Positions 30,397 through 30,907 of a DNA stretch of 32,910 nt are shown in pieces. The notes under the pieces are model-generated. The model ran no database searches, was not told the DNA's origin, and saw nothing but the letters and a program-made list of their open reading frames with translations. Both the position numbers and the translations under genes were made by a program. This DNA is from a virus. The DNA lies in IMG/VR virus record IMGVR_UViG_3300027861_000118, positions 1 to 32,910 of that record; one strand, given 5' to 3'. Positions within the stretch are counted from its first letter, which is position 1; the number at the start of each line of letters is the position of its first letter.

Positions 30397-30446
30397 TATT
30401 AATAGCCATTATGGTGTCGTGGCTGTTAATAATTTTCAAGACACCA
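30397..30446 (+). promoter_or_regulatory. Predicted H-type RNA pseudoknot in the SSB leader
   Basis: Stem 1: TATTAATAGCCA (30397-30408) pairs with TGGCTGTTAATA (30420-30431), 12 bp with one G-U. Its 11-base loop holds TGGTGTC (30412-30418), which pairs with GACACCA (30440-30446) to give a 7-bp stem 2 downstream. The two stems are compatible only as a pseudoknot with linkers of 3, 1 and 8 bases. The structure ends 2 bases before GAGG (30449-30452), the ribosome site of the SSB start at 30461. Confidence 0.6.
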
Positions 30447-30460
30447 ATGAGGATATAATT

Positions 30461-30907
30461 ATGGCAGTAGCAATCGGTGAAGCACTATACCCCGCTCTTT
30501 TTGAGCCTAAGGTAGATAAATACACACCAACACCCGGAGTTTATTCAATAGACTTAAAGGTAACTGATGAAGAAAGGGATAGACTAATAGCATCTGGGTT
30601 AAAACCAAAACAAAAAGATGCTAATGTGTTTGTGTTTAAGCGTAAGCCTATCACAGCTAAAGGTAACCACATGCCTGCACCTACAGTAGTAGATGAGAAC
30701 AAGCATGGTTGGGATAGTGCAATTAAGATTGGCAATGGTTCGCAGGTAAAGGTGGCATACTCTACTTACGAACACCAAGCGACTGATGTTTATGGTCTTG
30801 GTAAATCTTTAGATGCAGTACAGGTGGTGAGCCTTGTTGAATACTCTGGTGGTGGCAATGCCATCGATGAGTTTGATGCAGTAGCTAAAGAGGTTGATGA
30901 GTTCTAA
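30461..30907 (+). CDS. Single-stranded DNA-binding protein, T7 gp2.5-like
   Basis: The start is ATG 30461, with GAGG 8 bases upstream, instead of an in-frame GTG at 30419 that lies in the leader structure. The 148-aa protein has beta-rich OB-fold-like sequence (GVYSIDLKVTDEERDRLIASGLK, NGSQVKVAYSTYEHQ, LDAVQVVSLVEYSGG) and an acidic C-terminal tail ending in a Phe (FDAVAKEVDEF). Such tails are the hallmark of T7 gp2.5 and bacterial SSBs, contacting polymerase and helicase. It is shorter than T7 gp2.5. It precedes the primase-helicase and DNA polymerase genes, as expected for a replication operon. Confidence 0.75.
   Translation: MAVAIGEALYPALFEPKVDKYTPTPGVYSIDLKVTDEERDRLIASGLKPKQKDANVFVFKRKPITAKGNHMPAPTVVDENKHGWDSAIKIGNGSQVKVAYSTYEHQATDVYGLGKSLDAVQVVSLVEYSGGGNAIDEFDAVAKEVDEF

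Follow-up and report, generated by a model that had tools for sequence, protein, structure and literature searches.

The window, a 32,910-nt stretch of DNA from a marine phage, carries structural genes on its minus strand and, on its plus strand, a block of replication genes in which an SSB gene is followed by a primase/helicase and then by the start of another gene. In T4 and RB69 the SSB is a known autogenous repressor (PMC535899). The question raised by this locus is whether the SSB leader folds into a pseudoknot of the T4 gene 32 kind, as a first-pass annotation had proposed, and what such a structure would do. Since paired bases changed together across related phages, it is very likely that the knot in the SSB leader is a genuine control element. 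The best joint explanation, to which we assign a probability of about 0.5, would be a cis-acting knot controlling translation, with SSB as the likeliest ligand and occlusion at the ribosome site.

The SSB Gene and the Architecture of Its Leader

The putatively regulated gene (30461–30907, plus strand) encodes a Gp2.5-like SSB of 148 aa (PHROG 112, E 4.8e-11), which agrees with the earlier statement that this SSB family is unrelated to gp32. A profile search gave a weak match to 1je5, a 'helix-destabilizing protein' (E 0.021), and the structure prediction had a pLDDT of 38, too low for use. No relatives of the SSB were found in the bacterial genomes searched. The primase/helicase lies 3' of the SSB on the same strand (31021–32631, PHROG 239).

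The H-type pseudoknot occupies positions 30397–30446 of the plus strand and consists of a stem 1 of 12–13 bp, a stem 2 of 7 bp, loops of 2 nt (L1) and 8 nt (L3) and a 2-nt gap to the Shine-Dalgarno sequence. The 5' strand of stem 1, UAUUAAUAGCCA(U) at 30397–30409, forms 12 pairs plus a terminal U-G with the 3' strand (G)UGGCUGUUAAUA at 30419(20)–30431. Loop 1, UA at 30410–30411, crosses the deep groove of stem 2, the 5' strand of which, UGGUGUC (30412–30418), was read directly and pairs with GACACCA (30440–30446); the pairing of both stems is found in relatives as well. Loop 3 is AUUUUCAA at 30432–30439; among relatives it is A/U-rich and spans the same stem 1 with 8–11 nt. Stem 2 is followed by AU and then by the Shine-Dalgarno GAGG (30449–30452), 8 nt 5' of the AUG at 30461 and invariant in 20 leaders. 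The lengths given in the first-pass annotation for both stems and the linker, as well as the end of the knot two bases before the ribosome site, were all correct on direct reading of the sequence. It had further called the linker tight, with possible opening of the end A-U pairs, and we agree that it is tight, yet feasible. For the IBV frameshift pseudoknot, an L3 of at least 8 nt is needed to bridge its 11-bp S1 (reviewed in PMC7618472), therefore one or two basal A-U pairs of stem 1 may fray.

Stem 1 is also the minimum-free-energy hairpin of the window leader and is strong given the A+T-richness of the latter. The folding energy of the 181-nt leader overall is ordinary (z 0.5), therefore stability alone would not prove a pseudoknot. 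With a loose descriptor (S1 net at least 9, S2 at least 6), a comparable or looser pseudoknot occurred in 55 of 20,000 dinucleotide-shuffled leaders, and none of 300 shuffles equalled the summed stacking energy of the window pseudoknot. The comparison with relatives is far stronger evidence than either shuffle test. An alternative hairpin in the window fold, in which L3 would sequester the Shine-Dalgarno sequence, was rejected, being not conserved and overall no stronger than with shuffled L3. Also rejected was an N-terminal extension of SSB from the upstream in-frame GTG at 30419: the knot-to-AUG distances of relatives differ by amounts that are not multiples of 3, and this out-of-frame shift indicates that the GTG is not a conserved start.

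Conservation and Covariation Among Relatives

One IMG/VR scan yielded 46 loci with relatives of the SSB, 42 of them with a readable start. The knot is kept in 35 of these 42, which are all 35 viral contigs of the leader class of the window, and the remaining seven form a separate SSB clade (four placed in the tree, support 100/100). Among the 20 distinct leaders, 96.6% of the pair cells are paired, and two-sided changes affect nine pairs in 33 cells. The covariation score is 0.337 vs 0.200 in shuffles, none of 500 shuffles being as high on cells or score, and controls with slid partners paired in just 24–59% of cells.

Paired changes in the leaders of related phages, the check that had been proposed for the pseudoknot, were found in both stems. 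Stem 1 contributes most of the covariation, with two-sided changes in eight of its 12 pairs and 2–7 changes on the SSB tree for each varying pair. Stem 2 shows them in one pair, a G-C replaced by A-U in six leaders, while its outermost pair is lost in four leaders and five pairs are invariant. One relative, L002 (SSB at 327–758), encodes an SSB protein 99% identical to that of the window (30461–30904); the two leaders differ in stem-2 type (GAUGUC vs GGUGUC) and in their upstream sequence. Such near-identical SSBs with unlike leaders point to an exchange of the leader between phages, and for this reason the change in stem 2 is counted as one or two events. A weakness of the case is that support for stem 2 comes from one covarying pair (one or two SSB-tree events) together with strong conservation.

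AUUA around loop 1 is invariant in the 20 leaders. Variable among the knot-keeping relatives are the length and sequence of L3, the gap to the Shine-Dalgarno sequence and everything upstream; within the leader class of the window stem 2 ends 1–6 nt before the Shine-Dalgarno sequence and 12–17 nt before the AUG. In L017 the aligned knot is present with one mismatch; the energy scan, which tolerates no mismatch, chose a different weak fold there. At the level of sequence comparison, both the pseudoknot fold and its selection as a structure are established. In a further locus (L044, 3299–3440) the leader is missing together with roughly 33 initial codons of SSB, due to a deletion or an assembly fault.

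Restriction to the SSB Gene

Gene-blind scans of IMG/VR, in which the stem-2 sequence alone served as query and no gene was required, returned 67 matches. All 31 matches in front of SSB have a stem 1 of net 11–17 pairs and lie 13–17 nt before the gene, and the other 36 viral matches have no long stem 1 (2–6 pairs). A collection of 84,980 species genomes of bacteria and archaea gave 14 matches, again with a stem 1 of only 2–6 pairs. When 0.85 Mb of loci were scanned for pseudoknots in general, no other recurring knot was detected except a recurring antisense match, which lies inside the SSB coding region. Thus, carriage of the knot by other genes or by bacterial genomes was rejected. As the long stem 1 stands solely before SSB in the gene-blind scans, the element is specific to this SSB gene, to which it is restricted in these comparisons.

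A sister clade of the same SSB carries different H-type pseudoknots in front of the gene. In L020, L030, L037 and L039 these read UGGU-UA-GUGUUU-ACCA-UAAAA-GAACAC, UGGU-U-UAUGUCU-ACCA-UAAAA-GGACAUA, AAGGG-UUAGU-GUGGUGU-CCCUU-UUU-ACACCAC and AGGG-UUAGC-GUGGUGU-CCCU-UUUU-ACACCAC. They end 36–50 nt upstream of the AUG, and each was equalled in stacking energy by just 0–2 of 300 shuffles. These class B knots were called by the energy test and reading by eye only; compensatory differences between the stems, seen by eye in four sequences, are suggestive only. The leaders of distant pelagiphage controls, the HTVC104P-type SSBs and that of HTVC115P, contain no outstanding pseudoknot, and the knot is therefore not a general property of Gp2.5-like SSBs.

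Comparison With Known Systems

Like the gene 32 operator of T4, T2 and RB69, the element is an H-type leader pseudoknot before a phage SSB, upstream of an A/U-rich ribosome site. In this respect the proposed T4-like reading holds, since a conserved H-type knot touches the SSB ribosome site; its nucleate-and-spread model finds no support in the window. In T4 and RB69 the pseudoknot is followed on its 3' side by more than 40 nt of unstructured RNA containing UUAAA repeats (PMC535899). Here, stem 2 ends 1–6 nt before the Shine-Dalgarno sequence, which leaves no such tract, and the purine-rich TAAAGGTTAA repeats that had been likened to it are on the wrong (5') side of the knot and are not conserved. 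A T4-type A+U-rich UUAAA tract of that length between knot and start was found in none of the leaders, only the sister leader L030 coming near, and the spacing of the sister clade is closer to T4 gene 32 than that of the window. The knot is also larger, ~50 nt vs ~28 nt in T4 (PMC535899), and the SSB is Gp2.5-like instead of gp32, so the element is not the T4 gp32 operator. With two tested defining features of that operator failing, it is a parallel case and not a member.

In geometry the window is nearer to ribosomal-protein operators than to T4. The mRNA pseudoknots of E. coli rpsO (S15) and the alpha operon (S4) overlap the ribosome site and are stabilised by their own product, whereby the 30S subunit is blocked or trapped; in contrast to the SSB leader, their ligands are ribosomal proteins with rRNA-like recognition. 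The STAXI motif (RF01728) also places pseudoknots near SSB and other DNA-handling genes, but as a tandem array with two or three knots, UUCG loops being frequent, in Enterobacteriales (PMC2864571), whereas a single knot is present here. A search of Rfam over 29500–31500 of the window, up to E 5, gave only three chance-level matches outside the leader, and ten relatives gave no match at gathering score. The pseudoknot is evidently real, conserved and not in Rfam, and it most likely works as a leader pseudoknot controlling SSB translation.

Proposed Mechanism and Alternatives

The leader would fold into an H-type pseudoknot of ~20 bp, probably with two coaxially stacked helices. Because stem 2 ends 1–6 nt before the Shine-Dalgarno sequence, the folded knot would occupy ground that the 30S subunit must bind, and occlusion or entrapment of this subunit would be the natural reading of its position. 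Once folded and stabilised, the knot would hinder or trap the initiating ribosome, and an open knot would allow SSB to be made. An action of the pseudoknot on translation is, in our judgment, quite probable. The position beside the Shine-Dalgarno sequence, together with a leader in which a scan found no terminator-like site, fits translational control. SSB in excess over single-stranded DNA may stabilise the knot, resulting in autogenous control; the ribosome site would then be occluded directly, in place of T4-like spreading along an extended A+U-rich tract. We hold SSB to be the stabilising ligand with just short of even confidence, and solely because of the exclusive linkage of the knot to its gene and the precedent of T4 and RB69. 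The class A leaders of the window type and the class B leaders of the sister clade differ greatly, and any one protein acting as the ligand would need to accommodate both; RB69 and T4 gp32 do tolerate differing leaders (PMC535899).

The knot might instead bind another protein or protect the mRNA. It is possible, if doubtful, that it controls SSB translation with a ligand other than SSB, either as a fixed brake or standby alone or bound by a host or other phage protein. This explanation is served equally well by all the comparative evidence for a cis-acting element there, and the sequences of stem 2 and AUUA hardly vary, as a protein-binding site would lead one to expect; a general regulator, however, should have sites before other genes, and neither the loci nor the gene-blind scans contained any. 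An element of mRNA stability or processing, in which the stacked 20-bp helix next to the ribosome site is a barrier to nucleases or a target of RNase III, is unlikely. Hairpins in T7 mRNAs are cut by RNase III, stem 1 is strong for an A+T-rich leader and SSB seems to have its own promoter, but for this purpose a hairpin alone would suffice, leaving stem 2, its paired changes and the fixed position next to the Shine-Dalgarno sequence unexplained.

We consider a small-molecule riboswitch very unlikely. The preQ1 and SAM-II/SAM-V riboswitches are H-type pseudoknots abutting the Shine-Dalgarno sequence, and topology and position are thus alike; against this, their conserved aptamer loops with fixed bases are absent here, where loop 3 varies in sequence and length, no Rfam match was obtained and the gene encodes a replication protein. 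Least credible is an intrinsic attenuator formed by the S1 hairpin and a U-rich loop 3. A U-rich stretch does follow S1 in many relatives, but the base of the stem is A-U and stem 2 would be unexplained; this reading was rejected, as the scan had shown no terminator-like site.

Returning to control by SSB through its own leader, we tentatively propose, at rather less than even confidence, an independently evolved autogenous repression via a leader pseudoknot, with a Gp2.5-type SSB, direct occlusion and at least two knot architectures in one SSB family. The literature searched contained no report of gp2.5 autoregulation. With a covarying knot before an unrelated SSB in marine phages, this kind of control over SSB dose would have arisen among phages on at least two occasions. 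Natural leader pairs, including that of the window and L002 with their 99%-identical SSBs and unlike stem 2, suit tests of protein recognition.

Flanking Elements

Upstream of the knot, a sigma70-like promoter, TTTACA-N17-TATAAT with TG before the -10 (30309–30337, plus strand; 11 of 12 matches), would give a leader of ~116 nt. The number of promoter-like sites in the region is unremarkable (3 vs 3.9 expected), therefore this call relies on the quality of the match and on TGnTATAAT, which most relatives retain. The TAAAGGTTAA repeats (30360–30386, plus strand), 5' of the knot, were rejected as part of the element, being missing in five relatives that keep the knot (L002, L018, L023, L031 and L041). 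In two of these, sequence resembling a tRNA T-arm and 3'-end (GGTTCAAGTCCTTCC, GGTTCAAATCCACC) lies directly upstream of the knot, in place of the missing usual promoter (L018 ~1610–1645, L023 ~950–985). A whole tRNA was rejected, since ARAGORN finds none and only the T-arm-like sequence is present, which may be an attachment site or the remnant of a tRNA.

Between SSB and primase lies a hairpin cassette, GAGCAGTACCAATGGTGGAAGTCCAATAAACTGCTC (30960–30995), of which the exact pattern had no match in IMG/VR. HTVC115P (L108 ~1375–1412) has GAGTAGTACCAA-N12-AATAAACTACTC, with a paired change relative to this cassette; looser forms occur in L015 and L041, and other relatives have unrelated hairpins at this place.

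A 17-bp palindrome, ACATAAGASTCTTATGT, is present in four exact copies (26744–26760, 27732–27748, 28395–28411 and 30910–30926) within intergenic stretches of the window or at their edges, where 0.23 would be expected even with 3 mismatches. It may serve as an operator for some phage regulator, or it may be a mobile palindrome. A version of their own is found in most relatives, such as GCATAACATGTTATGC in L006, L007, L009 and L034, GTATAACATGTTATAC in L017 and GCATAACAGTGTTATGC in L028, often in two to four copies that have changed together, with one copy just past the SSB stop.
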